Of a stretch of 64,000 nucleotides of DNA, positions 3,120 to 36,498 are shown one piece after another (the stretch's first letter is position 1; each line of letters opens with the position of its first letter). Below the pieces are notes generated by a model that saw only the letters and a program-made list of their open reading frames with translations, ran no database searches and was not told where the DNA came from. The stretch is taken from NCBI GenBank assembly GCA_944323685.1, contig CALUTJ010000016.1:1-64000 (forward strand), given 5' to 3'. A program made the translations under genes and the position numbers. The DNA is from Candidatus Gastranaerophilales bacterium (GTDB taxonomy: Bacteria > Cyanobacteriota > Vampirovibrionia > Gastranaerophilales > Gastranaerophilaceae).

Positions 3120-3166
3120 TTTACAAAAAATTGTCATAATAAAAATAAAAGGAGAAAACATTAATA

Positions 3167-4546: not shown

Positions 4547-4652
4547 TAAAAGAATAAAATCTATTTACTTGTATTGTTATCATTGATATACTTGTAATAT
4601 GACTTTATGTAAAGTCTGATGTTTATACTAATAAAGTAGAAATAAAAATATT

Positions 4653-7085
4653 ATGAATATCGATGATGCTTATGTGAATTTTGAAAAATTATTTTCAAAT
4701 ATATCAACTATTGTTAATAGTATTGATACAGAAGCAGATACACGTTTTAAATTAATTGATGAAATTATTGTTGATGTGTTAGGATGGGAAAAAACTTCGA
4801 TAAAGACAGAGGCCCACATTGAGAATGGTTATATAGATTATTTAATACAAGATAATTGTCGTAACAAATTAATAATTGAAGCAAAAAATATTAATAATGA
4901 TATATGGGATTTAATAGACAAATCGTTCAACGTTTATAAAATATCTGGTCCTGCTTTAAAAAAGGCTTATTCTGGAATGGAACAGGCAAGAAATTATGCT
5001 ATTAATAAAAGTATTTGTATATCAGTTCTTACAAATGGAAATACTTGGATTGCATTCTTAGGAAATCGTACTGACGGGATCAATTGGTATGATGGGAAAG
5101 CAATTGTTTTTCCAAATTTACAATCCATTAAAGATAACTTTGCAAAATTTTATGAGTTTTTTTCAAAACAAGGTGTATTGAATTCTAATTTAATTGCAGA
5201 AATTGGTCGAGAAGAAAAAGGGAAAATAATTCTAACAGAAAAACTAAAATCTGCATATTCTAGAAATCCGATTTTTGTTCAAAAAACAGCTCTATCAAGA
5301 GATATTGAAAAGATATTTGAGGCATTTTTTGACAAAATTACAGATGAAGAAAATACGGAAATGCTTGAAAAATGTTTTGTTGAGTCAAAAGAAAGTAAAG
5401 AAGCTGATGATGTGTTAAAAAATATTTCAGAAAATTTAATTTCAAATATAGAAGAAATTAACAACACTTCATCCTCAAATCAATTATCACAAGAAATTGA
5501 AGAATCAATCAAAACAACAAAAGGAAGAACTGTTATTTTAATCGGAAACAAAGGTTCAGGAAAAACAACCTTTATAAGTAGGTTTTTTAGTTTAGTATTA
5601 GAACCGAGATTGAAAAAACAATGTCTTATTCTAAAGCTAGATGTTGGAATATCCACATGTAATATACATGATATTTCTAATTGGTTGACATATAGATTAT
5701 TAGAAGAGTTAGAGCATGAACTTTTTGCTTCAAATGGCGGTGCACCAACTTTTGATGAATTAAAAGGGATTTTTGCAAGTGATTATCACAAATTAAAAAT
5801 AGGAGAATATAAATATTTATATGATAAAAATGAAGCCGAATTTAATATTAAATTCGGAGAAATCATTCGAGAAAAAAAGAAAAATGCATTTGATTATTTA
5901 ATACAACTCCTTAAACATATAGTTAATGGCAGAAGATTAATGCCATGCATAATTTTTGATAATCTCGATCATCATGATAAAACTTTACAAGATATAGTTT
6001 TCCAATATTCACAGGCTATAAGAAGTGCTGTTCTAAGCTTTACTATATGTCCTATAACAGATCAAACGATATGGTTACATTCTAAAACTGGAGCATTACA
6101 AAGTTTTGTTACTACTGCTTTATATTTACCTTCTCCGCCAACAAAAGATATAATACAACATCGTATTAATTTTATACAAGATAAGTTAGATTACAGTAAA
6201 AATACGAACAATCATGATTATTTTTTAAAAAAAGGTATTCGGTTAAATATTAAAGACTTAGATACTTTTGTTTATTGTCTTAATGAATCATTTATCAACA
6301 CCGATTTTATTTCACGAAGAATTGGACAATTATCTAATTTTGCTGTAAGGAAAAGCCTAGTACTTATGAAAGAAGTAATGACTTCTCCATTAATAAGCAT
6401 AGATGACTTATTTAACAATTATTATACGACTAATAAGGTTAATATAGTTCCCGAAAAATTTGATAAAGCTATTATTGTTGGAAATTACAACTTTTTTAAT
6501 CAGGAAAAAAATAATTATATACTAAATATGTTTGAAACAAATCCAGAAGATTATCAATCACCTCTTTTAAGACTCAGAATTCTTACATATTTAAAAGGTA
6601 AAGAAGAATTATTGCGACGTAATAATCAAGATATTTATCAAGATATTTTTGAAATTATATCGTTTTTTGAGTTACTTAATATTAATGTTAATCTTGTAAA
6701 AGAGACCTTACAGCAATTTATAAATTATGGACTGATAGAATCTATAGATTCAAGCGTAAAAGATATAAATATTATCAATAGTATAAAAATATTACCATCA
6801 GCAAAAGCTCACGTTGATCTAGTTATGAATTCAAGAGCCTACTTAAGTCAAATGGCAATTCGTACTCCTATTATTAAAGGTAAACATTTAACTGATTTAT
6901 CCTACACTATAAATGATAAAGGTAAATTAACTTTTGATGATTGGGAATACATAATAAAAACATTCATAAATTATTGTATTGAACAAGATAATAAACATAT
7001 CACAATACCAAACTCAGTCGAATATAAACATCAAGCAGATTTAATATCTAGATTATTGAATCGTTGGAATAATTCAATAAAATAA
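4653..7085 (+). CDS. PD-(D/E)xK nuclease-P-loop NTPase fusion, defence candidate
   Basis: 810 residues. Residues about 25-170 resemble the N-terminal nuclease domain of type I restriction R subunits: E54, D62 in GYIDYLI and the E76-A-K78 pair in LIIEAK form a PD-(D/E)xK site, followed by Q111 and the strand SVLTNGNTWIAF. A linker leads to a P-loop (GNKGSGKTT, 298-306) and a Walker B (CIIFDNLD, 432-439). The last 300 residues are helical with no recognised fold. No SF2 helicase motifs and no methyltransferase or specificity subunit are nearby, so this is not an HsdR. Known: nuclease-NTPase single proteins on mobile elements often act against phage. Its role here is inferred. AT content is high and no good Shine-Dalgarno is visible. 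Confidence 0.7.
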   Translation: MNIDDAYVNFEKLFSNISTIVNSIDTEADTRFKLIDEIIVDVLGWEKTSIKTEAHIENGYIDYLIQDNCRNKLIIEAKNINNDIWDLIDKSFNVYKISGPALKKAYSGMEQARNYAINKSICISVLTNGNTWIAFLGNRTDGINWYDGKAIVFPNLQSIKDNFAKFYEFFSKQGVLNSNLIAEIGREEKGKIILTEKLKSAYSRNPIFVQKTALSRDIEKIFEAFFDKITDEENTEMLEKCFVESKESKEADDVLKNISENLISNIEEINNTSSSNQLSQEIEESIKTTKGRTVILIGNKGSGKTTFISRFFSLVLEPRLKKQCLILKLDVGISTCNIHDISNWLTYRLLEELEHELFASNGGAPTFDELKGIFASDYHKLKIGEYKYLYDKNEAEFNIKFGEIIREKKKNAFDYLIQLLKHIVNGRRLMPCIIFDNLDHHDKTLQDIVFQYSQAIRSAVLSFTICPITDQTIWLHSKTGALQSFVTTALYLPSPPTKDIIQHRINFIQDKLDYSKNTNNHDYFLKKGIRLNIKDLDTFVYCLNESFINTDFISRRIGQLSNFAVRKSLVLMKEVMTSPLISIDDLFNNYYTTNKVNIVPEKFDKAIIVGNYNFFNQEKNNYILNMFETNPEDYQSPLLRLRILTYLKGKEELLRRNNQDIYQDIFEIISFFELLNINVNLVKETLQQFINYGLIESIDSSVKDINIINSIKILPSAKAHVDLVMNSRAYLSQMAIRTPIIKGKHLTDLSYTINDKGKLTFDDWEYIIKTFINYCIEQDNKHITIPNSVEYKHQADLISRLLNRWNNSIK

Positions 7086-7176
7086 AAAAATAAGTCCAAT
7101 AAGACTACTTTATTTACGAATTCTGAATACACAATTTTAATCCTAGGGCAATGAGTTATTTTACCCCAATTTATTG

Positions 7177-7182
7177 TATAAT
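7177..7182 (+). promoter_or_regulatory. Possible -10 box for the RhuM-family gene
   Basis: TATAAT sits about 28 bases before the ATG in the gap after the nuclease-NTPase gene. No clear -35 hexamer is seen at the usual distance. It suggests the RhuM gene can be transcribed separately from the upstream cargo gene. Confidence 0.35.
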
Positions 7183-7209
7183 AATAAAAATAAATACTTG
7201 GGGGGCATG

Positions 7210-8226
7210 ATGAATAAAGATTTCCAATTTTTAGTCTATAACACACCTAACGACAATATAACTATTAACACAATAGTAAAAGACGAAACCATTTGGCTCA
7301 CACAAAAAGCTATGGCGGAATTGTTCGGTTGTAGCACTGATAACATATCTTTGCATCTTAAAAACATCTATAAAGATGCAGAATTATTGGAAGAAGCAAC
7401 TACCGAGGATTTCTCGGTAGTTCAAAAAGAAGGCAGCCGTGAAGTTTCCAGAAAACTAACATTTTATAACCTCGATGCAATTATTTCTGTTGGTTATCGT
7501 GTAAATTCGGCAAAAGCTACACAATTTAGAATTTGGGCTACGAATATTCTCAAAGAATACATGATTAAAGGTTTTATTCTTGACGATGAAAGATTAACAC
7601 AAGGTAAAACCGCTTTTGGTAAAGACTACTTCAAAGAATTGTTAGAACGTGTACGTTCAATCAGAGCTTCTGAAAGACGTATATGGCAGCAAATTACAGA
7701 TATTTTTGCAGAATGCAGTATTGATTATGATAAAAATTCACCAACTACAAAAGAATTTTATGCAACTATTCAAAACAAATTCCATTTTGCTATAACAGGA
7801 CAAACAGCAGCAGAAATTATTTACAATAAAGCGGATTGCACAAAAGAAAACATGGGACTTACAACATGGAGAAACTCTCCTGATGGAAGAATCTTAAAAT
7901 CGGACACAAAAGTTGCTAAAAACTACCTTGAAGAAAAAGAAATCAGACAACTTGAACGAACCGTTACAGGTTATTTTGATTATATAGAAGACCTTATTGA
8001 AAGAGAGAATACCTTTAATATGGTAGAGTTTGCTAAAAGTGTAAACGAATTTTTGGCTTTTAGAAAATACGATATTCTACCTGACAATAACAAAGGCAAA
8101 ATATCTATGAAACAAGCACAAGACAAAGCAGGTGCGGAATATGATAAATATAATAAGACACAAAAAATAGAATCTGATTTTGACCGAGAAGTTAAACAGT
8201 TAATTCATAAGCAAGATTTAAAGTAA
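7210..8226 (+). CDS. RhuM-family protein
   Basis: About 338 residues. The start is one of two consecutive ATGs (7207 or 7210), just after a run of six G at 7200-7205 serving as ribosome binding site. The N-terminal half carries the family signature: WLTQKAMAELFGCSTDNISLH (residues about 24-44), then FYNLDAIISVGYRVNS and ATQFRIWATNILKEY. RhuM proteins were first named from a Salmonella pathogenicity island and are common in mobile elements and defence islands. Their biochemical activity is not settled; the first part looks like a DNA-binding KilA-N/Bro-like module. It follows the nuclease-NTPase gene with a 120-bp gap and is probably cargo. Confidence 0.85.
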   Translation: MNKDFQFLVYNTPNDNITINTIVKDETIWLTQKAMAELFGCSTDNISLHLKNIYKDAELLEEATTEDFSVVQKEGSREVSRKLTFYNLDAIISVGYRVNSAKATQFRIWATNILKEYMIKGFILDDERLTQGKTAFGKDYFKELLERVRSIRASERRIWQQITDIFAECSIDYDKNSPTTKEFYATIQNKFHFAITGQTAAEIIYNKADCTKENMGLTTWRNSPDGRILKSDTKVAKNYLEEKEIRQLERTVTGYFDYIEDLIERENTFNMVEFAKSVNEFLAFRKYDILPDNNKGKISMKQAQDKAGAEYDKYNKTQKIESDFDREVKQLIHKQDLK

Positions 8227-21866: not shown

Positions 21867-22808
21867 TTAACAAAATGAAAAGAACAAATCTTCAAAAATC
21901 AAACGTTGTCTGATATATGATTCCAATTCTTTTTTGGCATGCTGTATTTTTAAAATATCTTTTCTGATTTTTTGTACAAGAATTTTATTTTCAAGATTTG
22001 CTTTCATCATCTGCGCTAAATAATACTCCAGGCAATCCATTACATATTCTGCTGAGTATCCCTTTGCGTTCATTGCATCTTCCAGTCTTTGGACAGCATC
22101 TAAAACATCAACTTTTTTTATGTTGGGATAATCCTCCATAACATCTTTTAAAAATTCTGTATCGTAATTTTGTGCATTGTAAGAAGGGACATAAAAACAC
22201 TGAGAACGCGAAATTATTGTTTCTATAATATCTTCTTTATCTTCTGTCAAAAACAAAAACAAGGTTCTCTCAGGAGGTTCTTCAATGGATTTTAAAAGCG
22301 AATTAGGGGCTTCACCATCCAGCACTTTTCGATTCAACGGTCTTGGCAGCCAGAGTTCCTGAGGGAATTTGAACTTTAAATCCTCAAATTCTTTGAGGTG
22401 TTTCCGTTCAAAATCAACTGGCTCCGTTAATTCAGAGTCGCAAAAAATAAACACTCTGTAATAATCAGACGAATTAACAAGGCTGTTGTTTATCATAAGC
22501 GTCTGCTTTATGGAAATAACCTTGCTCGATGTGTCATCAGAAGGTTTGTTGTCGTTTTTGGTTATCGTAAGGACAGCAGGGTGCTGGTTGTTTCTTATCC
22601 AGCTGCAATTTAAGCAGTCGCAATTGTATTCTCCGTCTTTTTGGCAGTTCAAGAGTCTTGCTATTTCCATTGCAAGATAGTACTGGGCGATTATATCCTG
22701 CCCGTAAAGCACAAGTGACTGTGCAAAGCTGCGGTTTTTGTTGTTTAAGGCAGCTTCAAAATAGTTTGTAAAGTATTCGTATTTTCTTTTAAAAATCGGG
22801 TGGAACAT
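21867..22808 (-). CDS. holB: DNA polymerase III subunit delta'
   Basis: 313 residues. The N-terminal AAA+ fold has a degenerate P-loop (LVLYGQDIIAQYYL), as expected for delta', and the zinc-module cysteines (CQ...YNCDCLNC near residue 55-67). The SRC-type segment is seen as IISRSQCF. It is part of the clamp loader with delta and DnaX. The start has AGAGG upstream, seven bases after the holA stop, so the two clamp-loader genes are co-transcribed. It is convergent with prmA. Confidence 0.88.
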   Translation of the reverse strand: MFHPIFKRKYEYFTNYFEAALNNKNRSFAQSLVLYGQDIIAQYYLAMEIARLLNCQKDGEYNCDCLNCSWIRNNQHPAVLTITKNDNKPSDDTSSKVISIKQTLMINNSLVNSSDYYRVFIFCDSELTEPVDFERKHLKEFEDLKFKFPQELWLPRPLNRKVLDGEAPNSLLKSIEEPPERTLFLFLTEDKEDIIETIISRSQCFYVPSYNAQNYDTEFLKDVMEDYPNIKKVDVLDAVQRLEDAMNAKGYSAEYVMDCLEYYLAQMMKANLENKILVQKIRKDILKIQHAKKELESYIRQRLIFEDLFFSFC

Positions 22809-22815
22809 ATAACCT

Positions 22816-23787
22816 CTAATTCAGCAATGCAAGTTCAACCGGCAGTTCATAAAAAGACATCTCGCCCGTTTTTACTCTGTATTCAGCCTCAAGCAGATTT
22901 TTTCTTATTTTTATAAGCCTGTCCATAGGCACTTTGCGTAATTTTTCGAGATGTTTTTTTACGATAAACTCCGGCAGATGATTTTTAGCTGCAATTTCCA
23001 TGGGGCTTTTGTTTACGGAATCGACCTTAATGCTTGCCATTTTAGAAAAATTTGTCTGTAACACGGCAAGGATTTCCAGATAATGTTTGTTTGTACAGAG
23101 TTTTTGAAATTCAAGCAAGGCTTTATCTTTTTCGCCTTTTAAAATATAATCGGTCAGGACAAAAATATCTTCGCTTGAAGTACAAATATTTTGAATATCC
23201 TCTTTTTTAACGGCTTTTGTCGGATATATTGCCAGTTTGAGTTTATCGAGTTCGGAATTTATAACCCGCAGGTTTGTACCTAGTCTGTCTATCAAAAATT
23301 GGACAACATCAGAAGTCATAATCAAATCTTTTTGTTTTGCCTGTTTTTGAATCCATACGGGAAGCTCTTTGCTATAGGTTTTCCATTCCGGAAATTCGGT
23401 CATTGTTGTATGTTTAGCAAGAATTTTGTAGAGTTTTCTTCTTGTATCAATTTTTTTGGTTGATTCGCGCTCGAGTTTACAGACAAAAACTATATTCAGT
23501 GTATCCGGAACGGTTTGAAGTGTTTCTTCTATTTGTTTAAGCTCTTTATCCTCAAAATTAATCTTACCTTTTGTATCGAAAAAATATTTTTCGCAGTTTA
23601 TAACAGCCAGAATACTGCCGAACATTAAAGCCGGGGTACGCAGTATATCCATAAGTTCGGGGAATTTAGGATTGTCATACACACGGTAGTTTGTGGACAA
23701 AAAAGCTTTGTCCACAAGTTTGTCTTTGAGCTTATTCAGCTCGGCTTCCATTAAAAAATCTTCCTGTCCGTGATAAAAATACAGCAT
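22816..23787 (-). CDS. holA: DNA polymerase III subunit delta
   Basis: 323 residues, normal length. Characteristic segments are the N-terminal LYFYHGQEDFLMEAEL, the middle TTMTEFPEWKTYS.LPVWIQKQAK and the lid region LGTNLRVINSELDKL. The delta subunit opens the sliding clamp for loading. The start codon has no clear Shine-Dalgarno; TATAAT lies directly before the ATG, so a start a few codons later (Met13) cannot be excluded. Confidence 0.9.
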   Translation of the reverse strand: MLYFYHGQEDFLMEAELNKLKDKLVDKAFLSTNYRVYDNPKFPELMDILRTPALMFGSILAVINCEKYFFDTKGKINFEDKELKQIEETLQTVPDTLNIVFVCKLERESTKKIDTRRKLYKILAKHTTMTEFPEWKTYSKELPVWIQKQAKQKDLIMTSDVVQFLIDRLGTNLRVINSELDKLKLAIYPTKAVKKEDIQNICTSSEDIFVLTDYILKGEKDKALLEFQKLCTNKHYLEILAVLQTNFSKMASIKVDSVNKSPMEIAAKNHLPEFIVKKHLEKLRKVPMDRLIKIRKNLLEAEYRVKTGEMSFYELPVELALLN

Positions 23788-23818
23788 GATTATATTGTAA
23801 CACGCTTAAAATTTATAC

Positions 23819-23852
23819 AAAAAAGATGCGCACAATGTACGCATCTTTTTAT
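23819..23852 (-). terminator. Terminator of the ROK kinase gene
   Basis: AAAAAGATGCG and CGCATCTTTTT form an 11-bp perfect stem around CACAATGTA. T runs on both strands allow use in either direction; the main user is the leftward ROK kinase gene. Confidence 0.85.
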
Positions 23853-23865
23853 ATAATTTTTTAAA

Positions 23866-24825
23866 TTAGTTGTCAATTAAAAGGCTTGCACCGATTAGAC
23901 CCGCGGTATTGCCCAATTCAGCCGGAACAACTTCAACGGCAGCACCCTGAATAGGCATTGCTCTGTCTTTTAATGTTTTTTTCAACGGCTCAAAAAGAAT
24001 ATCGCCGGCTTCTGCAACCCCGCCGCCTATTACAATTCTTTCAGGGTTTAAAAGGTTAACAACGCTTGATAAACCGATACCAAGATATTCTCCCATTCTT
24101 TCAAAAATCTTTTTAGCGACAACATCGCCCTGCTGTGCGGCCTGACAAACAATTGCGGGTGTGATTGCAGAAGTAGAGCCTGCTATTTCTCTAAATTTTG
24201 CACTCTTGCCGCCTCGTACATAGTCTTTTGCCATTGCAACGATTGAAGGGCCTGAAACGTAAGCTTCAAAACATCCGGTATCTCCGCAGCCGCAAAGATG
24301 ACCGTTGTGCATTTCCATTTTAATATGTCCGATTTCGCCTGCTGCGTTGCTTGCACCGCGTACGAGTTTTCCGTTAATGACAAGCCCTGAGCCGATACCG
24401 GTACCTACAGTGATACAAATAAGGTTTTTACAGCCTGCACCCGCACCGTAGTTTAACTCGGCAAGAGCCATACAGCGTACATCGTTATCCACTTTTACTG
24501 GGACGTTAAATTCCTTTTGCATAATTTCGGCGATAGGAACATCTATCCAGCCCGGAATATTAGGCAAAATTCTTACAACACCGTTATCACAGTCAATTTG
24601 TCCGGGGAAACCGAAGCCGATGCCCTCGATATCGTTTGTTGTGATTTCCGCTTCTTTAAGCAAATCTTTTATACATTGTGTAATATTGCTTATAGTGTAT
24701 TCATATCCCATTTCAGCACGTGTTGGTACTGTTTTGGGGTGCGAAATTTCACCGTCTTTATTAACAAGTGCGATTTTAACGTTTGTTCCGCCAATATCAA
24801 CGCCAACTCTGAATTTTTCAAACAT
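23866..24825 (-). CDS. ROK-family glucokinase
   Basis: 319 residues. The ATP-binding motif GVDIGGTNVKIAL starts at residue 8. The sugar-binding GHIKMEM and the ROK zinc motif CGCGDTGCFEAY (near 175) are present, and so is the late GGGVAEAGD segment. Members phosphorylate glucose or related hexoses with ATP in the cytosol. The zinc site argues for an active kinase rather than a ROK repressor, and there is no N-terminal HTH. GGGGATAGAG precedes the start. No sugar transport gene is adjacent, so glucose is the default substrate guess. Confidence 0.9.
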   Translation of the reverse strand: MFEKFRVGVDIGGTNVKIALVNKDGEISHPKTVPTRAEMGYEYTISNITQCIKDLLKEAEITTNDIEGIGFGFPGQIDCDNGVVRILPNIPGWIDVPIAEIMQKEFNVPVKVDNDVRCMALAELNYGAGAGCKNLICITVGTGIGSGLVINGKLVRGASNAAGEIGHIKMEMHNGHLCGCGDTGCFEAYVSGPSIVAMAKDYVRGGKSAKFREIAGSTSAITPAIVCQAAQQGDVVAKKIFERMGEYLGIGLSSVVNLLNPERIVIGGGVAEAGDILFEPLKKTLKDRAMPIQGAAVEVVPAELGNTAGLIGASLLIDN

Positions 24826-24903
24826 AGTTTCTCTATCCCCGTCTAATTTTATGTGTCAATGACATTATAATATCACGAGCAAAAATAATTTTTAAACAGA
24901 AAA

Positions 24904-25350
24904 TTAATAAGTTCTGAATATTTTTCGGTTTAACTGACGGCGTAACTTATTAAAATCTGTCACCTGCTGCAATATATTGTCTTTTGTTTGCGAAACTATT
25001 TCTCTAAAGTTTTTGAGAGTATTCAGTGTTTCCGAAAAATCAAACTGGTGTTTCGGGCTTGTAAAATTATAATGCCCTACTTTTAAGTTTGAATTTACGA
25101 AAAAGTTGCTATTTTCATCACTTGTAATATTAATTGTCAGTTCTTTTGTGTTTCTTAACTTATCGACAAATCGCTGCCACATTGTTTTGGGGGCGGGTTG
25201 TCCAATTCTTTTATTTGCTTTATCAAAATTCCTTACTGATTCAAACATTAAACTTGCCCAATCTTCACCGTATTTTTTGATACAATTTTGTTTTGCGAGT
25301 TTTGTTATATAAACCTGTGTCGGTTTGTGTTGAATTCTTAGAATGCTCAT
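24904..25350 (-). CDS. Unrecognised small soluble protein
   Basis: 148 residues, basic, with AAGGAAA upstream. No signal peptide or membrane helix. The N-terminal half is helical (QVYITKLAKQNCIKKYGEDW), the middle is Asn/Ser-rich and strand-like, and the end is again helical and basic. No family is recognised. It lies between the ROK kinase and the large pseudo-AAA protease genes on the same strand, with 90 bp to the latter. Confidence 0.45.
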   Translation of the reverse strand: MSILRIQHKPTQVYITKLAKQNCIKKYGEDWASLMFESVRNFDKANKRIGQPAPKTMWQRFVDKLRNTKELTINITSDENSNFFVNSNLKVGHYNFTSPKHQFDFSETLNTLKNFREIVSQTKDNILQQVTDFNKLRRQLNRKIFRTY

Positions 25351-25440
25351 TTTATTTCCTTAAAAATAATGTCTGTACGAAAAATATAACATACCGGCAT
25401 TATTTTTTTTGTTAGTTTATTAAATTATATTTACAAATAA

Positions 25441-28400
25441 TTATTCCGCTTTATGACATTTTACGCCGCGTTTTGTTGCTGCAATAACTTCGAGTATGGT
25501 TTTGTCCAAAAGCTCAAACTCTTTTTGTTTTTCGGCAGGTTGTTTGGCTCTCCAGTCATTGAGCATTTTGACAAACTCTTCTCTTTGGATAATGCATTCG
25601 CCTGTACCGACTTTAGAAGAATATTTTTTTACAAACTCTTTGTTAAAGTCCTCATATACCTCTGTTATTGCGTCAGACACAAGCTGGGCATTTGTCAGCA
25701 TGACATCGATATCTTTGTTGAGATTATCTTTATCTTTTTCTGAAATAACCCACATCCCGTCTATTGACTTTTTACCGAAATGCTTGCCCTGCCCCATAAG
25801 ACCTGCTGCCATGGTAGCGGTATGTGTAGCATTTTGCATATCCACAGTAATTCCCCAGCTGCCGTCCTGTCCAAAGAAATGTTTTTCACACGAGTTGCCG
25901 CCAAAATCCGTTACAAGACCGCTAAAGATTTTTTCAAATGACCACTCGGGGTTTAGTTCGTCACTGAAATATACAGCCCCGCCGTATGTACCTCTCGGGT
26001 CTAATGTAATAAAGTTAACATAGTCGCCGGCATGGTCGGGTCTGTTTTCCTTTTTAGCAAGCTCTTCCATAATAATACCGTTTGTTGCGTGTCCGCATTC
26101 ATGGGATGTAACAAGCTGCTTAGCGTAAGACGGATCTTGTGCGCTTGCAGGACGTCCGGTGGTTAATTGCAAATACGCCTCAGTAAAGTCAGCTTTTGCA
26201 ATATTTTTGTGTTTTCTTTCTTTTGCGACATTTTTGGCTTTGTCAAGGAGTGTAAGAATTTCTATATAAGAACACCGTTCAGTAAGCAGGTTTATGTGCT
26301 CTTTTATTTGTTTTTGTTCTTGTTCATCGCCGGCAAGTTTAATGCCTTTTTTCTTTATGTAGTAATTTACTATTTCATTTCTGGCATATTTATTTCTGGC
26401 CGGTGATTCAACTTCTATCTGGTCAATAAATTTGAAAGATTTGGAAGTCGCATCACCTATATATCTCGGGTCATTCATAGAGCCCATTACAACGATATTC
26501 ATCCCCTGTTCCTGAGCTTTATTCATTTCTCTGATAAGCTGTGACATTGCTTTTTCGTGGTATTCGGAGAGGTTTTCGCCGTATGAAAAATATTCAAAGT
26601 TTTCAATATAAAGTATTGCTGATTTTTTAGGGTTTGTTTCCGCCTGAGTTTTAACCATGTTAAAAAGTTTTTTCATAGAAGCTTCGGGGCTTAAGTTGCC
26701 GCCGCCAAAAAGGTCAACGTCTTTTGTACCGAAATCAACCGCATTGATTTCAATATAAGGAATTTTTGCTTCCCCTGCAATTGCCTGAGCCGTATATTTT
26801 CTGCCTGCGCCGACAGAACCGTCCTGTGAATAAATGACAAAACCTTTTGTACCCATAGATTTGTCTTTTATTCTTTCAACAATAGATTGAGCTTCTTTTT
26901 TAGTGGCAGGCGAGCCTACCATATCTTTCAGCTTTATACCTGTATCAAAAACAACTTTTACTGCGTTGTCGTTTTCAACGGGTTTAAAGATTTCTTTAGC
27001 CTCTTTTATATAGTTTTGAACATCGCTCAAACCGATATTTTGTTTATCAATATAATAAGAAGAAACAAGCTCAAGCACTTTTTGGGCTTTTTCGGGGTAG
27101 TTGCCCGAAAGCTGGTTTGCCGCTTCTACACATTTTTCAAGCGCGGGTTTGGAAAAATTCTTTTTGATTTTTGACATAAGTTCCGGAACCTCTTTAAACG
27201 CTTTTTGCGCCTGTTCCATATTCATTAAAGGCATGGAAACTTCGCCGAAATCATCAAAAAATCCTTCCAGATATTCATCGTTATAATCTTTATAATATTT
27301 ATCTTTATCCGCAACCATAACAAATTTTACGTTTTTAGGCGCATTAATAAAGATTTCTACATTATATTCATCAACAGCAAGTCTGTTAAGTTCATCATCC
27401 ATAATATCCATAACAACAATATAGTTGTTTTGTTTATCTTTGCCGAACTCTTTCAGTTTATTCGAAATATAGCCGTTATCTATAAATCCTTCGTTATTGA
27501 GATTGAGGATTTTTGTATTGTTTTTGTTCAGTTTACCGAATCCGTCTTTGCTTTCTTCAAAAAGATGCAGGAAGCTGTTAACAAGATGTGACGGATAATT
27601 GTTTTTGTCATGCAAAATGGCCATATTTGTGCCTACGGCAAGGTTTTTCCAGATGTTTTTTGCTTTGTCGTCATAAAATTTTATATGCGGGCGCTTGTTT
27701 AGCGGTCGTTTGTCTATATAGACTGCATCTTTAAGGGCGTTTCTAAATGGCAGGGTAATTTCTCTTTTCATCCGGTCACTGTTAGGCATCATCGCGGCAG
27801 AGAAAAGAGTACAATCATGGACAAGTCCGTCGCCTTCTACCATACCTTCATCCGCGTTAAGTTTGTTATCCTGTTTGTAGACACTGTAAATGTCGTTTAA
27901 AAATTGTTTGGCTATAGGTCTGTTTTTGGCGTCACTTGGCGGCAATACTTTAAATACTTTAGGTTGTTCGGCAAGTTTTTCGTCCAGAATTTTTAATTCG
28001 TTTTCAATAACCGGTTTTATAAGATCTCTTTTTTCTTTCTTTTTAAAGACATCCTTACCCATATCGTTTTCAAAAAATACATAAGCATCGTAAGCAGATT
28101 CGTCAGCATAGCTTACTTCACCGGAATTCAGGGCATCTATAAAATTGTTGATTTTTTCAAGACCGGCTCTTAAAACATGTATACGATCAACTTCGGCATG
28201 TCCGTATTCTTTGGCTATTTTTTGTGAATCATTCAATAACTCCTGAGCAGGGTCATTCATGTTGTTCAATATTATCGCTATTTTCTCTGTGCCTCCTGTT
28301 TTTTCAGCACCGTCTTTTTTTTGACCGAAACTTACAAAATAACTGTGCAGCAATGACGGGGACGGCGACGGCAAATGAGGCGACGCCACGGGGGGCTGAG

Positions 28401-28488
28401 TTTGTGTATTTTCTGTAGTGTTATCTTTTTGTGCAGATTTATTAAAAATATTTTTTGTATTTAAATTAACGTTAATTTTTTCAATCAT
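25441..28488 (-). CDS. FtsH-type (M41) metalloprotease with degenerate AAA domains
   Basis: 1015 residues. The C-terminal third is a peptidase M41 domain: the zinc motif HECGH at 796-800 and the third ligand D883 in VDMQNAT are kept. Before it lies an FtsH-like AAA module whose key residues are lost: the P-loop reads GSVGAGRK (Arg where Lys is expected), the Walker B reads ILYIENFE and no arginine-finger RPGR motif is seen. An earlier region (about 275-400) looks like a second decayed AAA domain. There are no membrane helices, unlike FtsH. The N-terminus has a Pro-rich linker and the tag VSFGQKK. GAGAGGG precedes the start. Likely a protease without ATP-driven unfolding, or a regulator; the function is unknown. 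Confidence 0.75.
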   Translation of the reverse strand: MIEKINVNLNTKNIFNKSAQKDNTTENTQTQPPVASPHLPSPSPSLLHSYFVSFGQKKDGAEKTGGTEKIAIILNNMNDPAQELLNDSQKIAKEYGHAEVDRIHVLRAGLEKINNFIDALNSGEVSYADESAYDAYVFFENDMGKDVFKKKEKRDLIKPVIENELKILDEKLAEQPKVFKVLPPSDAKNRPIAKQFLNDIYSVYKQDNKLNADEGMVEGDGLVHDCTLFSAAMMPNSDRMKREITLPFRNALKDAVYIDKRPLNKRPHIKFYDDKAKNIWKNLAVGTNMAILHDKNNYPSHLVNSFLHLFEESKDGFGKLNKNNTKILNLNNEGFIDNGYISNKLKEFGKDKQNNYIVVMDIMDDELNRLAVDEYNVEIFINAPKNVKFVMVADKDKYYKDYNDEYLEGFFDDFGEVSMPLMNMEQAQKAFKEVPELMSKIKKNFSKPALEKCVEAANQLSGNYPEKAQKVLELVSSYYIDKQNIGLSDVQNYIKEAKEIFKPVENDNAVKVVFDTGIKLKDMVGSPATKKEAQSIVERIKDKSMGTKGFVIYSQDGSVGAGRKYTAQAIAGEAKIPYIEINAVDFGTKDVDLFGGGNLSPEASMKKLFNMVKTQAETNPKKSAILYIENFEYFSYGENLSEYHEKAMSQLIREMNKAQEQGMNIVVMGSMNDPRYIGDATSKSFKFIDQIEVESPARNKYARNEIVNYYIKKKGIKLAGDEQEQKQIKEHINLLTERCSYIEILTLLDKAKNVAKERKHKNIAKADFTEAYLQLTTGRPASAQDPSYAKQLVTSHECGHATNGIIMEELAKKENRPDHAGDYVNFITLDPRGTYGGAVYFSDELNPEWSFEKIFSGLVTDFGGNSCEKHFFGQDGSWGITVDMQNATHTATMAAGLMGQGKHFGKKSIDGMWVISEKDKDNLNKDIDVMLTNAQLVSDAITEVYEDFNKEFVKKYSSKVGTGECIIQREEFVKMLNDWRAKQPAEKQKEFELLDKTILEVIAATKRGVKCHKAE

Positions 28489-28827
28489 AATAACCCTCTC
28501 AAAATGATTCGATATAAATTTAAAATGGCATAATAAAATTTTTTGTCAGTAAACAGGCTAAATATTACAAACTCGATACAATTCAAATCATCTAATCTAG
28601 TGTCGCAGTTGCCGACTCGAGCCTTCGAGCCGTCACTGCTCACCTTTGCCTTCTTTTTCGGCTGAACTGTGGTGAAGCCTGAAAAATGGCTTCACTATGT
28701 GAACAATGTGTCACTCCAAAAATTCGTTCACGTCGCGTTGCTCCTTATCACGAATTTTTCTCGGACAAATTAATAGCGGCGATTATTTTTTCATTTAAAC
28801 TCTGTTGCGGCTGAGGTAAATTGTAAT
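28489..28827. other. Spacer with repeat copy C
   Basis: The 339-bp gap between two leftward genes holds the ribosome binding site and probable promoter of the large protease gene and the full repeat copy C. The remaining bases (28770-28827) show nothing further. Confidence 0.5.
28590..28768 (-). repeat. Dispersed 179-bp repeat, copy C (full)
   Basis: Full-length copy in leftward orientation, identical in length to copies A and B with only scattered substitutions. All three inverted-repeat modules are intact. It lies about 100 bp upstream of the protease gene and about 60 bp downstream of the BaiN-like gene. Confidence 0.97.
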
Positions 28828-30069
28828 TTACAAAACATTACCGGCCGCTAAACCTGCAATATATCCTGTAGACCAGCAGTTTTGCAGGTTAAAACCGCCT
28901 GTCAGTCCGTCTATATCAAGTATTTCTCCGCAAAAGTATAAATTTTCAACTATTTTTGATTCCATTGTTTTAGAATCCACCTCTTTTAAATCAACGCCGC
29001 CGGCAGTGACTATTTCTTCGCCCTTTACCGTTGCTATAGCGTTAAAAGTAAGTGAGGTCAGGTTCTTTGCAATATTTTCTCTGTCTTTTTTGCTGAGCTG
29101 ACCTGCTTTTATGTCATGTTTTATATTCTCTTTTTGTAATATAGCCGCTGCAAGATTTTTAGGAACAAAGCAGCTGACAATATTTAAAATATCTTTTTGC
29201 GCATTGTTTTTGAGCTTTAAAATTAAAAGAGAGTCAAACTCTTTGTACTCTTGTCCGACCGGATTTAGAACGATTTTTAAAGGGTTATTTTTGTCAAAAT
29301 TTATATATGCACAATAAGAGGATATTTTATATATTAATGGCCCTGAGATTCCGTTATGCGTGAACAAAAAATCTCCGGCAGCAGCATTTGAAGGAAGTTT
29401 TAGTTTTTTATTTTCAAAAAATACCTGTGCAAAAATGTTTTTCAGGCTTATTCCGCTAAGAGTTTCAAACTCTTTTTCCCGTGTAATCATTGCGCTTAAA
29501 GACGGTTTCAGCTCTGTTATATGATGCCCCAGACTTTTTGCCAGATTATGACCGTTGCCTTTTCCGCCTGTTGCTATAACAAGCTTATTTACAAAATGTT
29601 TTCCTTTGTCTGTTGTAAGTTCAAACCCGTTTTGTAATTTTTTTACACTCAAGACCTTTGCAAACGTCTTTTTTATATTTTTTTTCTTGTCAAGCTGTTT
29701 GAGCAGGGCGTTTTTTACGTCTTTAGAAGAATTAGTTTCGGGGAATATTCTTAAATCTTCTTGAATATATGTATTTATCCCTATTCTGTTGAAAAAATCA
29801 ACGGTATTTCGGGTAGAAAATTTTGAAAAAACACTGTACAAAAATTTTTCGCCTCTGGGGTAAAACTTTGCCAGCTCTTTAAAATTAAATTCCGCATAAG
29901 CAAGATTGCAGCGCCCGCCTCCTGTTGGCAGCAACGTGTTCAGGATAATATTTTTGTCAAATATAAGAATATTGTTCTCAATGTTTTGTGATGCACATAA
30001 AGCACACATTATTCCGGCAGGGCCGCCGCCAACAATACCGATTGTATTGCCAGTTGCTGTTTCAGTCAT
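28828..30069 (-). CDS. BaiN/HI0933-like flavoprotein oxidoreductase
   Basis: 413 residues. The N-terminal FAD-binding motif is GIVGGGPAGIMCA (near 11-23), then the family motif TGGGRCN (50-56), VIATGGKGNGHNLAKSLGH and the C-terminal GGVDLKEVDSKTMESK and TGGFNLQNCWSTGYIAG. The family (YhiN, BaiN) comprises FAD-dependent reductases of uncertain substrate; BaiN acts on bile-acid intermediates in gut clostridia. The start overlaps the end of folK by eight bases, so both are translated from one message. Confidence 0.88.
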   Translation of the reverse strand: MTETATGNTIGIVGGGPAGIMCALCASQNIENNILIFDKNIILNTLLPTGGGRCNLAYAEFNFKELAKFYPRGEKFLYSVFSKFSTRNTVDFFNRIGINTYIQEDLRIFPETNSSKDVKNALLKQLDKKKNIKKTFAKVLSVKKLQNGFELTTDKGKHFVNKLVIATGGKGNGHNLAKSLGHHITELKPSLSAMITREKEFETLSGISLKNIFAQVFFENKKLKLPSNAAAGDFLFTHNGISGPLIYKISSYCAYINFDKNNPLKIVLNPVGQEYKEFDSLLILKLKNNAQKDILNIVSCFVPKNLAAAILQKENIKHDIKAGQLSKKDRENIAKNLTSLTFNAIATVKGEEIVTAGGVDLKEVDSKTMESKIVENLYFCGEILDIDGLTGGFNLQNCWSTGYIAGLAAGNVL

Positions 30070-30574
30070 CTGAATACCCCCTTGTGCCGTAAAGACAGAC
30101 TTCTTCTACGTCATCGAGTTCATCATATAAATCTGGCACTGACTTTTTTAAAACAGGATGAACAAAATCAGGGATAAGCTCCAGCAATGGTACAAGCACA
30201 AAGGCTCTTTCATGCATTCTAGGGTGCGGAACGGTTAAAATACCGGTATTAATTATTTGGTTGTCATAAAAAATAATGTCTATATCAACAGGCCTTTCAC
30301 CCCAGCGTTGTTCACGGCTTCTGTCCCTGCCCAGCATTTTTTCTATGCTAAGACATTTCAGCAGCAAATCCTGCGCGCTTAAATCGGTTTTAATTTCGAC
30401 AACCATATTCAAAAACCAGTTCTGGTCTTTAACACCCCATGGCTCTGTTTCGTAAAGGGCAGATGCTCTTATTAATTTAATATTTTCGGCAAGACTAAGC
30501 AGACTGACCGCCTGTTGTACGGTTGTTAGTCTGTTTTTTGAATTTGCACCTAAACACAAATAAGCTATTGCCAT
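30062..30574 (-). CDS. folK: 6-hydroxymethyl-7,8-dihydropterin pyrophosphokinase
   Basis: 170 residues, normal length. Motifs AYLCLGAN (start), ETEPWGV, FLNMVVEI, and the metal-binding RPVDIDIIFYDN with PHPRMHERAFVLVPL are diagnostic. It transfers pyrophosphate to the pterin in folate synthesis. No Shine-Dalgarno is visible; TATAAT lies nine bases before the ATG, suggesting a leaderless or nearly leaderless message. No other folate gene is in the window. It is divergent from efp. Confidence 0.93.
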   Translation of the reverse strand: MAIAYLCLGANSKNRLTTVQQAVSLLSLAENIKLIRASALYETEPWGVKDQNWFLNMVVEIKTDLSAQDLLLKCLSIEKMLGRDRSREQRWGERPVDIDIIFYDNQIINTGILTVPHPRMHERAFVLVPLLELIPDFVHPVLKKSVPDLYDELDDVEEVCLYGTRGYSDD

Positions 30575-30737
30575 AAATAAATATTATAATTTTTTATGGT
30601 TAATTACAATTTTAAACGCTTTCATGCAGCAAAATTCTTTATAATTGTTAAAAATTGGGTTAAAAATTAGCGGTGCACATTGCTTATTGGTTAGTTTTTA
30701 TGTTAAGATTCTATACATTAGTATATGAGGAAAATCT

Positions 30738-31295
30738 ATGATATCAGTAAATGATTTAAAAACAGGCTTAACACTTGAGTTAGACAACGGCTTGTGGTCA
30801 GTTGTTGAATTTTTACACGTAAAACCCGGTAAAGGTGCAGCTTTTGTAAGAACAAAGCTCAAAAACGTAGAAACAGGCAACGTTGTTGAAAAAACCTTCA
30901 GAGCAGGTGAAAAAGTTGCTAAAGCTACTCTTGATAAACGTGAAATGCAGTATCTTTACAAAGAAGGCTCTGATTACGTTATGATGGATACTGAAAACTA
31001 CGAACAGCTTTCTGTTCCCGAAGTTCACATCGGTGACGGCGTAAAATACCTTAAAGAAAACATGAACGTACAAATTCTTTTGCATGACGGCAAAATCGTC
31101 GGTTTGGATATCCCTAACCACGTTGAACTCGAAGTTGTTGATACTCCTCCGTCAGAAAAAGGCAATACTTCTCAAGGCGGTACAAAACCTGCTAAACTTG
31201 AAACAGGTGCTGTTGTTAATGTTCCTTTCTTTATTGCTAACGGTGATAAAATCAGAGTTGATACAAGAACAAACGAATACCTCGACAGAGTATAA
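30738..31295 (+). CDS. efp: Elongation factor P
   Basis: 185 residues in three beta-barrel domains. The tip loop is PGKGAAFVR with K32, the residue that is modified in many bacteria. No EpmA/EpmC or rhamnosyltransferase (EarP, normally with Arg) is nearby. EF-P relieves stalling at polyproline stretches. AGGAAA precedes the ATG. accB follows after 53 bp, an arrangement also common in cyanobacteria. Confidence 0.97.
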   Translation: MISVNDLKTGLTLELDNGLWSVVEFLHVKPGKGAAFVRTKLKNVETGNVVEKTFRAGEKVAKATLDKREMQYLYKEGSDYVMMDTENYEQLSVPEVHIGDGVKYLKENMNVQILLHDGKIVGLDIPNHVELEVVDTPPSEKGNTSQGGTKPAKLETGAVVNVPFFIANGDKIRVDTRTNEYLDRV

Positions 31296-31348
31296 TATTG
31301 CGCTGCCGGTATTCAAACACGATAAAAGCTTAGTAAAAGGATGTTACT

Positions 31349-31804
31349 ATGAATTTTGAATTAGATTATATTGAAAAATTAGTCAAAATGGTGTCTGACA
31401 GTGATTTGACAGAACTTACGCTTGAAGATAACGAGCAGGCTATTGTTATAAGAAAAGAAAAAGAGGTCGTACAGGCACAGGTAATGCCTCAGGTAATGAC
31501 AGCTGCGGCTGCCGCTCCTGCTCCGGCTCCTGCTGCACCTGCCGAAGAAAAGAAAGAAGAAGCTCCAAAAGGCAAACCGATTACCTCGCCTATGGTAGGT
31601 ACTTTCTACATGGCTGCTTCTCCGGGTGCAAAACCTTTTGTTGAAGTCGGTCAAACAGTTTCTGCCGGTCAGGTTGTCTGCATTATTGAGGCAATGAAAC
31701 TTATGAACGAAATCGAATCTGAAGTTTCCGGTAAAGTTACGCAAATCTGCGTAAAAGACGGTGAAGCCGTTGAATACGGTCAGGTTTTGATGTATGTAGA
31801 ATAA
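31349..31804 (+). CDS. accB: Biotin carboxyl carrier protein of acetyl-CoA carboxylase
   Basis: 151 residues. An N-terminal helical domain is followed by an Ala/Pro linker (about 51-65) and the biotinyl domain with [10 protein letters not shown], whose K117 carries biotin. AAAGGAT precedes the ATG. It works with AccC coded just downstream and with AccA/AccD coded 11 kb to the left. BioF and BioD for making its cofactor are also in this window. Confidence 0.97.
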
Positions 31805-31845
31805 CAAATTTACATTGTAACTTTACAAAATATAAAAAAATTATG

Positions 31846-31901
31846 ATAAATTCCCAAGTTTGAGATAAAATTAAACTATCTATCAGACTTAGGGAATTTA
31901 T
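31846..31901 (+). promoter_or_regulatory. Inverted repeat over the accC ribosome binding site
   Basis: ATAAATTCCCAAGT (31846-31859) pairs with ACTTAGGGAATTTAT (31887-31901) with one bulged A. The right arm contains AGGGA, the only plausible Shine-Dalgarno of accC, so a folded mRNA would hide it. As DNA it could equally be an operator. Confidence 0.5.
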
Positions 31902-31907
31902 TTTATT

Positions 31908-33281
31908 ATGATAAAAAAAGTTTTAATCGCTAACAGAGGCGAAATTGCCGTCAGAATAATCAGAGCATGTAAAGAATTGGGTATAAAAACAGTTGCCGTA
32001 TATTCTCAGGCAGATGCCGACTCTTTGCATGTCAGCCTTGCTGATGAAGCCTATTGTATAGGCCCTGCTCAAAGCGCAAAAAGTTATTTAAACATACCTG
32101 CTATTATTTCTGTAGCTTTAACAAGCGGTGCAGATGCCATTCACCCCGGTTACGGATTTATGTCGGAGCGTTCCGACTTTGTTGATATATGCTGTGACCA
32201 CGGTATAAAATTTATCGGCCCTTCTGCTGAAGCAATGCGCAAAATGGGGGACAAAGCCACTGCGAGAAAAACCATGACCGCCAACGGTGTGCCTGTTACT
32301 CCGGGAACCGACCTTGTTGATGACATTGACGCTGCAAAAGAATTTGCGGCAAAGGCAAAATATCCTGTTATTGTCAAAGCTACTGCGGGCGGTGGCGGAA
32401 AAGGCATGAGAATTGCAAATTCTCCGGAAGAACTGGAAGAGGCAATTACTCTCTGTCAAACGGAAGCACAAAATGCTTTTGGCAATGCCGGTGTTTATCT
32501 TGAAAAATATATTATTAACCCGCGCCACATTGAGGTGCAAATAATTGCAGACAGCTACGGCAATGTTGTACACCTCGGTGAACGTGATTGCTCGGTACAA
32601 AGAAGACATCAAAAACTTCTTGAAGAAGCACCTTCTCCCGCAATTGACGAAAAAACAAGAAAAGCAATGGGGGCAGCTGCTGTTACCGCTGCAAAAGTTA
32701 TCGGTTATGAAGGTGCCGGCACAATAGAATTCTTGCTTGACCATGACGGCAGCTGGTATTTTATGGAAATGAATACACGTATTCAGGTTGAACACTGTGT
32801 ATCGGAAATGATTTCCAGCGTTGATCTTGTTAAAGAACAAATCAGAGTTGCCGCAGGCGAAAAACTCTCATTTACACAGGATGATATAGAACTTCGCGGC
32901 CACGCTATTGAATGTCGTATAAACGCAGAAGATGCAGACAAAAACTTTATGCCGTGCCCCGGAGAAATTAAAGGCTACATTGCCCCGGGCGGTTTTGGTG
33001 TCAGAGTTGATTCTCACTCTTATACGGGGTACAAAATCCCGCCATATTACGATTCAATGATAGGCAAACTAATCTGCTGGGGCAGAGATAGAGAAGATGC
33101 CAGAAAGAGAATGCTGCGTGCGCTTGACGAATACGTTATAACAGGGATTAAGACTACCATTCCGTATCATAAAAAAATTCTTACAAATGATGTATTCATT
33201 TCAGGCAACTTCAATACAGGGTTTATTGCAGAACACATGACACCTAAAAAAGAAGAAACTGAAGAGGAAGTTAAAGTATAA
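31908..33281 (+). CDS. accC: Biotin carboxylase subunit of acetyl-CoA carboxylase
   Basis: 457 residues. The N-terminal [18 protein letters not shown], the ATP-grasp glycine loop [10 protein letters not shown] (near 160), the HIEVQ and [14 protein letters not shown] segments and the catalytic MNTRIQVEH are all intact. It carboxylates biotin on AccB with ATP and bicarbonate. The 103-bp gap to accB holds an inverted repeat over its ribosome binding site. Confidence 0.97.
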
Positions 33282-33283
33282 AA

Positions 33284-33320
33284 AAGAAAAAAGCCTGTGT
33301 TTTGCAGGCTTTTTCTTTTT
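33284..33320. terminator. Bidirectional terminator between accC and the SNF2 gene
   Basis: AAAAGCCTG and CAGGCTTTT form a stem with loop TGTTTTG, flanked by A-rich sequence on the left and T-rich on the right. It can serve both convergent genes. Confidence 0.9.
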
Positions 33321-33321
33321 G

Positions 33322-36300
33322 TTAATCCAGTGAGAATATGTCTTTCAAATCTTCATAAGTCAATGATTTGCCGATGTTTCTGTCAACAGATATTACGCTG
33401 TCAACCAAATCTCTTTTTCGCGATTTAAGTTTTTGGATTTTTTCTTCAACCGTACCTTTGGTAATCATCCTGTATACAAATACTTTTTTGGTCTGACCGA
33501 TACGATAGGCTCTGTCTGTTGCCTGATCTTCAACAGCAGGATTCCACCACGGGTCATAATGGATTACGTAGTCTGCACCTGTTAAGTTCAACCCCGTACC
33601 GCCGGCTTTTAAGCTGATTAAGAAAATCGGTATTGTCGGGTCGGAGTTGAAACGCTCAACAACCTCCTGACGGTCTTTTGTGCTACCCGTCAGGTATTCG
33701 TGTTTAATACCTTCTTTAGTCAGCCATTCTTTAATGATATCGAGCATATCCACAAACTGACTGAATAAAAGCACTCTGTGTTTTTCCGCAATTATTTCTT
33801 CCAGCATTACTTTTAGCTGTTCAAATTTGCCTGATTGTTTTATGCCTTTAATATTTTCTTTGTCGTAAAGTCTGGGGTGGCAGCAAATTTGTCTTAAGCG
33901 CAGCAATGCAGAGAAAATAGACATTCTGCTTTTTTCAATACCCTTTTCTTCAATGGATTTAAAGAGTTCTTCTCTTGTAGAATCCATAACTTCAAGATAA
34001 AAGTCTTTTTGTTCAGGTGTAAGTTCGCAGTAAGCAACGTTTTCGATTTTATCAGGCAAATCTTTGGCAACGTCACGTTTCATACGGCGCAAGATGAACG
34101 GATAAATCTGTGATTTCAAACGTTTTTCAACAGTTTTGTCTTCACGCTCCATAATAGGAGTGACATATCTGTAATTAAATTCGCTCTTGTCAAATAAAAA
34201 TCCGGGCATAAGGAAGTCAAAAATTGACCACAATTCTTCGAGTTTGTTCTCGATAGGCGTGCCTGAAAGCGCAAGTTTGTGCTTGCAATTAAGCTGTTTT
34301 ACGCTTTGTGCCGTCATAGATTCCGCATTTTTGATATTTTGCGATTCATCCAGTATAACGTATCTGAATTCATACTTTTTAAGTTTTGCAATATCACGTC
34401 TGATAAGAGCATAACTCGTTATAACAACATCATACTTAGGAATTTCTTTAAACAAATCGTTTCTTTCGGTTCCGCTGAGTTTCAGGCAGCTAAGTCCCGG
34501 AGCAAATTTTTCGATTTCGTTTTCCCAGTTAAATACAACCGAGGTCGGACATATAACGAGGTTAGGCGCTTTTTTGTTTTTTTCTTTTGCTTTTTGAAGC
34601 AGCGCCAGTGCTTGCAGGGTTTTACCAAGACCCATATCATCGGCAAGAATACCGTTCAAGCCGTATTGATACAAGAACCACAGCCAGCCGAAACCTCTTG
34701 TCTGGTATTCACGAAATTCTGCCTTAATTCCTTTAGGCAAACTCGGTACATCCATTGTTGAGAAGGTTGAAATCTGTTTCCAGAATTTGTTGAACCGCCT
34801 GCTCATTTTTAGTTTTAATCCGAGGTTTTCCATTTCTGAAATCAAGCCGGCACGATAAGTTTTTACAATGTATTTGTTGTCATCGTTTTTATAGACATCA
34901 AAGGTGTTGAACGCTCTCATCAATGAATAAATATCCATTGTCGGAACTTCCGCAAAACCGAGGTTTCTTATTCTTACATATTTGCTGTTGTCAATTGTAA
35001 GCGCATATACATCGTCAAACGGAATGATTTCTTCGCCCACACGTCCGTACAATTCAAGTTCAAAACTGTCCGTGGAATCAATTGCAAAATCAATATCAGC
35101 ACAGAGTTCAAACGGGTCTTTTGTAAGTTTAAAGAAGGACATATCATCTTTTTCTTCAAACTTCCAGCCGTCGCCTGCCTGCTGAATATAGTAGTTGTAA
35201 AAATCAATTGCGTTTTCTTTTTCAAGCGCAAGGTTATTGGTCTGCATGGGGGCAAATTTACAGGCAAGAAGCATATTGTAAGCGGCTTCTTCGTGCTGAG
35301 GATTGCGTTTTACCCAGTAGAGCAAATCTTCTTTAGGCTTTTTAATTGTCACATAAGGCGTTTTTTCCGTATGTTTGGAATAAGGCACCCTTGTACCGTC
35401 GTATTCAAATTCCAGCTCTGCTTTTAAAGAACCGTCATAATCAAGCCCCAGAGTAACAACATTAACAGGAGGTTTTTGTTCGAGGAACAGTTTTTCGATA
35501 GTTTCCGAAACAGTAACCTTCATAACTTTTTTGAGCTTGGGCAGCTCTTCATACAGAAATTTTGCACCGTCAGCGTCTTTTACATCAGTAAAGCTTGCTT
35601 TAATTAAACTTTGCGGCAATGCGGAAACAGGCGTTGTTGTCGGGAAAATAACATTTTTGTATCTGCCCCATTTTAACTGACGTGAAAAATATCTGATTTC
35701 TTCAAACGGATAAGAGTCGCTTCCGTCAGGTCTTTCCCACGACAGAGAAAGCAAAACATTGCCTACCATAGAGAAGTTTACTGATAGCGCAAGTTCCCAT
35801 TCCTTATCATCAAATCTTAAGCGTTCTTTTGTTTTTCCGTCTATGACTTCTTCGGCTTTTGACAAAAGCTGGAAAAATCCGTCAAATTTGTTAATAGGTA
35901 CATCATACCAGCCTGCTTTTTTATCAAGACGCGAACGCTGCAAAAGAAGCTGGAAGATTGCAATATCAATTTTTTCCTCTTCGTTTAAGATAAAGGATTT
36001 ATCAGTTCTTTGAAGTTCAATAATGGCTCTTAAAATAGCTTCCAAATCTCTTATAACTTTGCCTGTTTCTCTGTCCATAACAAGTATGGAAAAGAAGTTT
36101 TGTCTTCTTTTGGGATTAAAATGGAACACATAGCGCCCTGTTGGGGCATCTACAGGCGGTACATATTCATCCGGATATTCTGTTTTTATTTTATGTACGC
36201 GTTCAAGGTACTCATCATAGACTTTGTCTTCTATTACCTTTAATCCGACTGCTATAGCATGTTTGCACCATTCTTCCTTTAAAGGACAGCTGCAATCTGC

Positions 36301-36498
36301 TTTTACACCGTTTTTGGTGAAGGTCAGGCTTGTTTCGTAAGCATCTTTAAAATTGCCTTTTACAACAGCATCAACACCGGCTATTTTGGTATCATATGAA
36401 AGAACTATGTCCTTTTGATAACCCTCATAGCCCCTTCTCCAACTGCCGGGGGTAGCTTTATCTTTGATGTATTTGTAGTTAAACTTGCAAACGCTCAT
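33322..36498 (-). CDS. SNF2-family helicase-like ATPase with SWIM zinc finger
   Basis: 1058 residues. The N-terminus has a SWIM zinc finger (CSC...WCKH, about 68-80). The middle 400 residues lack a clear fold by eye and match the position of the helicase-associated domain. The C-terminal SNF2 ATPase has motif I DDMGLGKT (about 620), motif II DESQ (about 719; DEAH or DEAQ in most), SGTPIENKLEEL, and the second RecA lobe with SQFVDMLDII, LISLKAGGTGLNLT and DQATDRAYRIGQ. Such HepA/SWF-type proteins remodel protein-DNA complexes; the target is unknown. It stands alone and shows no sign of transfer. Confidence 0.92.
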   Translation of the reverse strand: MSVCKFNYKYIKDKATPGSWRRGYEGYQKDIVLSYDTKIAGVDAVVKGNFKDAYETSLTFTKNGVKADCSCPLKEEWCKHAIAVGLKVIEDKVYDEYLERVHKIKTEYPDEYVPPVDAPTGRYVFHFNPKRRQNFFSILVMDRETGKVIRDLEAILRAIIELQRTDKSFILNEEEKIDIAIFQLLLQRSRLDKKAGWYDVPINKFDGFFQLLSKAEEVIDGKTKERLRFDDKEWELALSVNFSMVGNVLLSLSWERPDGSDSYPFEEIRYFSRQLKWGRYKNVIFPTTTPVSALPQSLIKASFTDVKDADGAKFLYEELPKLKKVMKVTVSETIEKLFLEQKPPVNVVTLGLDYDGSLKAELEFEYDGTRVPYSKHTEKTPYVTIKKPKEDLLYWVKRNPQHEEAAYNMLLACKFAPMQTNNLALEKENAIDFYNYYIQQAGDGWKFEEKDDMSFFKLTKDPFELCADIDFAIDSTDSFELELYGRVGEEIIPFDDVYALTIDNSKYVRIRNLGFAEVPTMDIYSLMRAFNTFDVYKNDDNKYIVKTYRAGLISEMENLGLKLKMSRRFNKFWKQISTFSTMDVPSLPKGIKAEFREYQTRGFGWLWFLYQYGLNGILADDMGLGKTLQALALLQKAKEKNKKAPNLVICPTSVVFNWENEIEKFAPGLSCLKLSGTERNDLFKEIPKYDVVITSYALIRRDIAKLKKYEFRYVILDESQNIKNAESMTAQSVKQLNCKHKLALSGTPIENKLEELWSIFDFLMPGFLFDKSEFNYRYVTPIMEREDKTVEKRLKSQIYPFILRRMKRDVAKDLPDKIENVAYCELTPEQKDFYLEVMDSTREELFKSIEEKGIEKSRMSIFSALLRLRQICCHPRLYDKENIKGIKQSGKFEQLKVMLEEIIAEKHRVLLFSQFVDMLDIIKEWLTKEGIKHEYLTGSTKDRQEVVERFNSDPTIPIFLISLKAGGTGLNLTGADYVIHYDPWWNPAVEDQATDRAYRIGQTKKVFVYRMITKGTVEEKIQKLKSRKRDLVDSVISVDRNIGKSLTYEDLKDIFSLD

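Follow-up and report, generated by a model that had tools for sequence, protein, structure and literature searches.

On the minus strand of a 64,000-nucleotide stretch from Candidatus Gastranaerophilales (the window: positions 1 to 64,000 of contig CALUTJ010000016.1, GenBank assembly GCA_944323685.1) lies a gene for a predicted soluble M41-type protease, which reads from an ATG start with zero internal stops and whose features are collected in Table 1. Gastranaerophilales are gut bacteria related to cyanobacteria. The genome measures 2.3 Mb and is 99.7% complete. Besides ClpC and ClpB it encodes two further M41 proteins; one is a canonical FtsH, and in the other, which is soluble and of AAA-M41 type, the motifs GPPGTGKT, FIDEAD and HEAGH are intact.

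Table 1. Coordinates of the protease gene and its features in the window
Feature	Position	Strand	Residues	Basis or remark
Whole gene	25441–28488	minus	1015 aa	HSP100-like N-domain and D1, FtsH-like D2, M41 peptidase
Leader, disordered and fast-evolving	28291–28488	minus	1–66	pLDDT 32–53; dN/dS 0.16–0.68
Leader motif YFVSFGQKK	28315–28341	minus	50–58	Phe54 invariant in 53-row alignment A2
HSP100/ClpC N-domain-like region	27919–28290	minus	67–190	profile against PDB ClpC N-domains; fold
Degenerate HSP100-type AAA D1	26974–27732	minus	253–505	P-loop lost
Degenerate FtsH-type AAA D2	26155–26973	minus	506–778	Pfam AAA, FtsH fold, dN/dS
Degenerate P-loop GSVGAGRK	26797–26820	minus	557–564	Lys to Arg, 70/70
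Degenerate Walker B YIENFE	26593–26610	minus	627–632	
Arginine-finger region KSFKF, finger lost	26428–26442	minus	683–687	
M41 peptidase domain	25444–26154	minus	779–1015	profile and fold match to FtsH structures
Zinc-binding motif HECGH	26089–26103	minus	796–800	H796, E797, H800 each 70/70
Conserved Glu868	25885–25887	minus	868	70/70
Asp883, expected third zinc ligand	25840–25842	minus	883	70/70

A sequence-only reading had described the product as an FtsH-type metalloprotease with an intact zinc site, a degenerate ATPase and no membrane helices, and our analysis bears out each of these points. The D2 and M41 domains match FtsH structures by profile (E 1e-41) and, in the predicted model, fold as FtsH does, the correspondence beginning at about residue 506 (Foldseek E 2e-19) and giving a VIA-align Z of 26.3 against FtsH structure 3kds_F (3.5 Å over 414 residues). 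Pfam AAA is reached with 38 bits (cut-off 21.2), and Peptidase_M41 scores 28.9 bits in hmmscan (cut-off 29.9) and 31.7, above the cut-off, in the genome search; the NCBIfam FtsH model TIGR01241 gives 75.1 bits and its curated cut-off of 600 is not reached. The peptidase is M41, and no Lon peptidase domain is present in the protein. It shares with FtsH, YME1 and AFG3L2 the fold and order of D2 and M41, the HExxH motif and the downstream Glu and Asp, but differs from FtsH in lacking the catalytic residues of Walker A and B and the arginine finger, lysines standing at the finger sites where KSFKF replaces the RPGRF of FtsH. It also carries no membrane helix, its highest 19-residue hydropathy being 0.77 compared to 2.87 for the FtsH of the same genome. 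The pore motif is likewise changed: FVG in the genome's own FtsH and YVG in ATPase-intact relatives, it is absent from the family rows examined, as would be expected if threading had been given up.

The region upstream of D2, previously noted as a second, decayed AAA-like module, is real and has lost its P-loop beyond recognition, but it is more than merely AAA-like, corresponding to an N-domain and D1 of the HSP100/Clp type. When residues 64–505 were modelled alone, AlphaFold returned a pLDDT of 92 and a pTM of 0.86 (pLDDT 84 for the full-length protein), and all of the top 50 PDB hits to this N-terminal half in Foldseek (50/50) were ClpC, ClpB, ClpA or Hsp104. The D1 model aligns with Hsp104 D1 at a VIA-align Z of 19.2 (2.7 Å over 233 residues), the N-domain has a profile match to ClpC N-domains in the PDB (E 9e-5), and the D1 lid resembles the PDKAIDL lid of Clp proteins. 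The best-scoring Pfam family is Clp_N, yet it is found in only 5 of 53 members (best E 0.005), and hhalign of the N-terminal half against ClpC and ClpB of the same genome is weak (probability 22, E 0.001), so that the HSP100 link rests on the fold and on the PDB profile hits. Since the upstream region is HSP100/Clp-derived, the protein as predicted from sequence and model is a fusion of an HSP100 N-domain and D1 to an FtsH D2 and M41 domain, with both ATPase modules degenerate and the protease site intact. From ClpC, ClpB and Hsp104, whose N-domain and D1 fold it shares, it is set apart by the lost D1 P-loop, by a D2 of FtsH type and by a peptidase that is fused rather than supplied separately as ClpP.

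The loss of ATPase residues is a property of the family, as comparison with homologues shows. In an alignment of 70 orthologues from Candidatus Gastranaerophilales genomes, Arg replaces the P-loop Lys throughout, and no sequence (0/70) retains the canonical Asp-Glu Walker B; the Asp position holds E in 54, D in 9, N in 5 and K in 2, and the Glu position N in 63, K in 4, H in 2 and D in 1, with Glu itself in 0/70. Position 683, at the finger site, is Lys in 61/70 and Arg in none, and position 686 is Lys in 64/70 and Arg in one. By comparison, H796, E797, H800, E868 and D883 are all invariant. The recurrence of the same substitutions beside an intact zinc site in 70 orthologues makes a pattern far beyond chance. 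Selection on the degenerate D2 is purifying, with dN/dS of 0.03–0.08 across seven species pairs, close to the value for the peptidase domain, and the leader evolves faster than D2 in the same pairs.

The orthologues form one clade, which is separated with 100/100 support from both FtsH and the ATPase-intact relatives; the branching order among the outside relatives is unsure, because several of those branches are long. The gene is present in 22 of 23 genomes searched from its genus (its own genome counted), and extends beyond the genus to further genera of the family and to a second family of the order, the weaker matches in this genus, family and order search being mostly canonical FtsH. Altogether, 112 relatives were confirmed within genome contigs. 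In a class-wide sample, about one third of the genomes in the same family have the full-length form, which all the other orders sampled lack; in a phylum sample this form is confined to the same family. The protease family is thus lineage-specific, as had been suspected.

There are homologues whose Walker motifs are normal, a finding that the earlier reading would have taken to show that the present copy is simply decaying, but they constitute a separate and more distant set within the same order. Simple decay of this copy is refuted by the family-wide loss and the purifying selection. One soluble relative from another family (L031) has normal D2 motifs and scores above the Pfam cut-off for AAA_lid_9, the Clp D1 lid. 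Given this lid, and relatives with intact D2 motifs in the same order, the fusion and the loss of D1 probably came before the loss of D2, and these ATPase-intact relatives offer a natural series for tracing how the losses followed one another, D1 before D2. A soluble M41 relative from another family of the order (L033) combines a GSGKS P-loop with YINDFD in place of Walker B, and its finger region reads KKGVFE; judging from these motifs, a separate or intermediate loss of ATPase function is possible there.

FtsH is membrane-anchored and is a textbook case of a protease dependent on its motor, the proteolysis of proteins normally requiring ATP. The reading we favour, with a probability of about 0.6, is that the window protein is a soluble, lineage-specific zinc protease in which a dead double-AAA ring sits over an active chamber that cuts unfolded proteins without ATP. 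Cutting of this kind is probable because both motors lack catalytic residues and the cleavage site is fully kept, and that the protein works without threading, as first proposed from the sequence, is what we infer to be the best account of it. The protein would assemble as a ring in the cytoplasm, with its two dead AAA layers acting as static scaffold, pore and filter above the zinc-protease chamber; the N-domain may select unfolded or disordered substrates, which would then diffuse into the chamber and be cleaved with no ATP-driven threading.

The nearest precedent is LonC of M. taiwanensis (MtaLonC), an AAA+ protease whose AAA module has lost Walker, sensor and arginine-finger residues while its peptidase is kept, and which is hexameric, has no ATPase activity, still binds nucleotide and degrades only unfolded proteins, independently of ATP (PMC3391209). 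LonC belongs to the Lon family, with a different peptidase fold and chemistry, whereas in the window protein two degenerate AAA modules, one of them HSP100-derived, are joined to an M41 zinc peptidase. The plastid FtsHi proteins are FtsH relatives that have also lost one of two activities, but in the converse sense, the zinc motif being lost and the AAA+ module kept (PMC8197885, PMC9020784). We infer that the window protein is best explained as an FtsH-type counterpart of LonC. Besides the normal dependence of FtsH proteolysis on ATP, two features of the protein sit less easily with this account: the invariance of G560 and G562 in the P-loop means that a nucleotide or other phosphate ligand might still bind, and the retention of pore-region Phe594 in 52/70 orthologues suggests that some grip on substrates may remain.

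The first of these features leads to an alternative that we consider unlikely, in which the dead D2 binds ATP, ADP or a phosphate ligand without hydrolysis and so gates the cleavage of a few specific substrates, making the protein a processing protease. R563 is as invariant as the two glycines (70/70), the sequence flanking the P-loop is almost constant within the genus, and the LonC hexamer binds six nucleotides in spite of lacking ATPase activity (PMC3391209); against this, the P-loop Lys is gone, the loop preceding the P-loop carries a 3-residue insertion relative to FtsH, and the data point to no ligand that could be named.

Motor function might instead be supplied from outside, if the protein were a subunit of mixed rings driven by an ATPase-competent FtsH, the soluble AAA-M41 paralogue or ClpC, on the pattern of plastid FtsH12 and FtsHi. 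The genome does encode FtsH, the Walker-intact paralogue (L148:12290-14560 minus, G000 contig C1, without a membrane helix), ClpC and ClpB, and FtsH family members are known to form mixed rings (PMC9020784, PMC8197885). However, only about half of the genus members with the window gene also have the paralogue, and no conserved operon partner emerged from the 80 loci compared, the commonest neighbour being a gene that reads as enolase-like (13 loci). Gene order around the protease varies even between orthologues that are 96% identical (window 21867-36498 versus L034-L112), and none of 12 tested window neighbours (0/12) occurs in the fetched flanks of such an orthologue (L034). The absent paralogue and the unconserved neighbourhood both weaken the mixed ring, as do the membrane anchor of FtsH, which the window protein lacks, and the fact that D1 is dead too; we regard it as distinctly improbable. 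The suggestion that a partner controls the protease finds no support, given the missing paralogue and the unconserved neighbourhood.

Within the otherwise fast-evolving and disordered leader, the invariant Phe54 marks a short motif, similar forms of which recur elsewhere in the genome. Among 503 proteins taken from sampled stretches of the genome, 15 have the pattern [VI][SNT]F[GKTS][GAS] within their N-terminal 70 residues, compared to 6/1883 internal windows (odds ratio 9.6), and the nominal p of 9e-7 is indicative only, since the pattern was picked after examples had been seen, gene starts were assigned by a crude method, and the pattern does not cover the VSFGQ of the window protein itself. 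N-termini with a (V/I)(S/N)F(G/K/T)(G/A/S) motif are also found at L148, L155, L160, L161 and L169, and among the proteins that carry it or a close variant are kinase-like, AAA, GNAT-like and helix-turn-helix ones, along with several that match nothing in Pfam; the paralogue at L148 has KVSFGGKR. In the window, a protein with several helix-turn-helix matches (60280-61236, minus strand) bears YVSFTSKK. From its sequence and distribution, the motif may act as a sorting or binding signal peculiar to the lineage. Were it a sorting signal that took the protease out of the cytoplasm, the loss of ATPase function would be explained, because ATP is absent there, and both the constancy of Phe54 and the N-terminal enrichment speak for such a role. 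No secretion machinery is linked to the motif, however, and its presence on a helix-turn-helix protein, as well as on an ATPase-intact soluble paralogue, favours a role in the cytoplasm, so that we think export very improbable. That the gene is a decaying or pseudogenised FtsH paralogue, a view for which only the departure of its motifs from those of functional FtsH can be cited, is practically negligible and is ruled out by full-length ORFs, the substitutions shared by 70 orthologues, the invariant zinc site and the low dN/dS of D2.

Other origins were considered and rejected. A flagged TAA is the ordinary C-terminal stop in the copies inspected, which disposes of read-through or an alternative code; there are no relatives among viral contigs that would indicate a phage origin, and no PADLOC model matched that would indicate a defence system.

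Our searches of the open-licence literature turned up neither an HSP100-FtsH fusion nor an M41 protease with dead motors, and no earlier report on Gastranaerophilales FtsH or on a pseudo-ATPase M41 protein, LonC and FtsHi being the nearest. A family that keeps its protease and discards both motors would reveal which roles AAA rings play beyond generating force, and would stand beside LonC as an independent path to quality control that needs no energy. Taken at its widest, and tentatively, at somewhat less than even odds, the family may represent a new, energy-independent class of chambered protease, an HSP100-FtsH fusion specific to gut Gastranaerophilales, whose tandem pair of AAA+ motors now serves as a static gate, conserved by selection, above an active M41 zinc chamber, and which is sorted within the cell by an undescribed N-terminal (V/I)(S/N)F(G/K) motif.

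Elsewhere in the window, the left end (562-8226) resembles on visual inspection an integrated mobile element, with integrase-, primase- and restriction-like ORFs.
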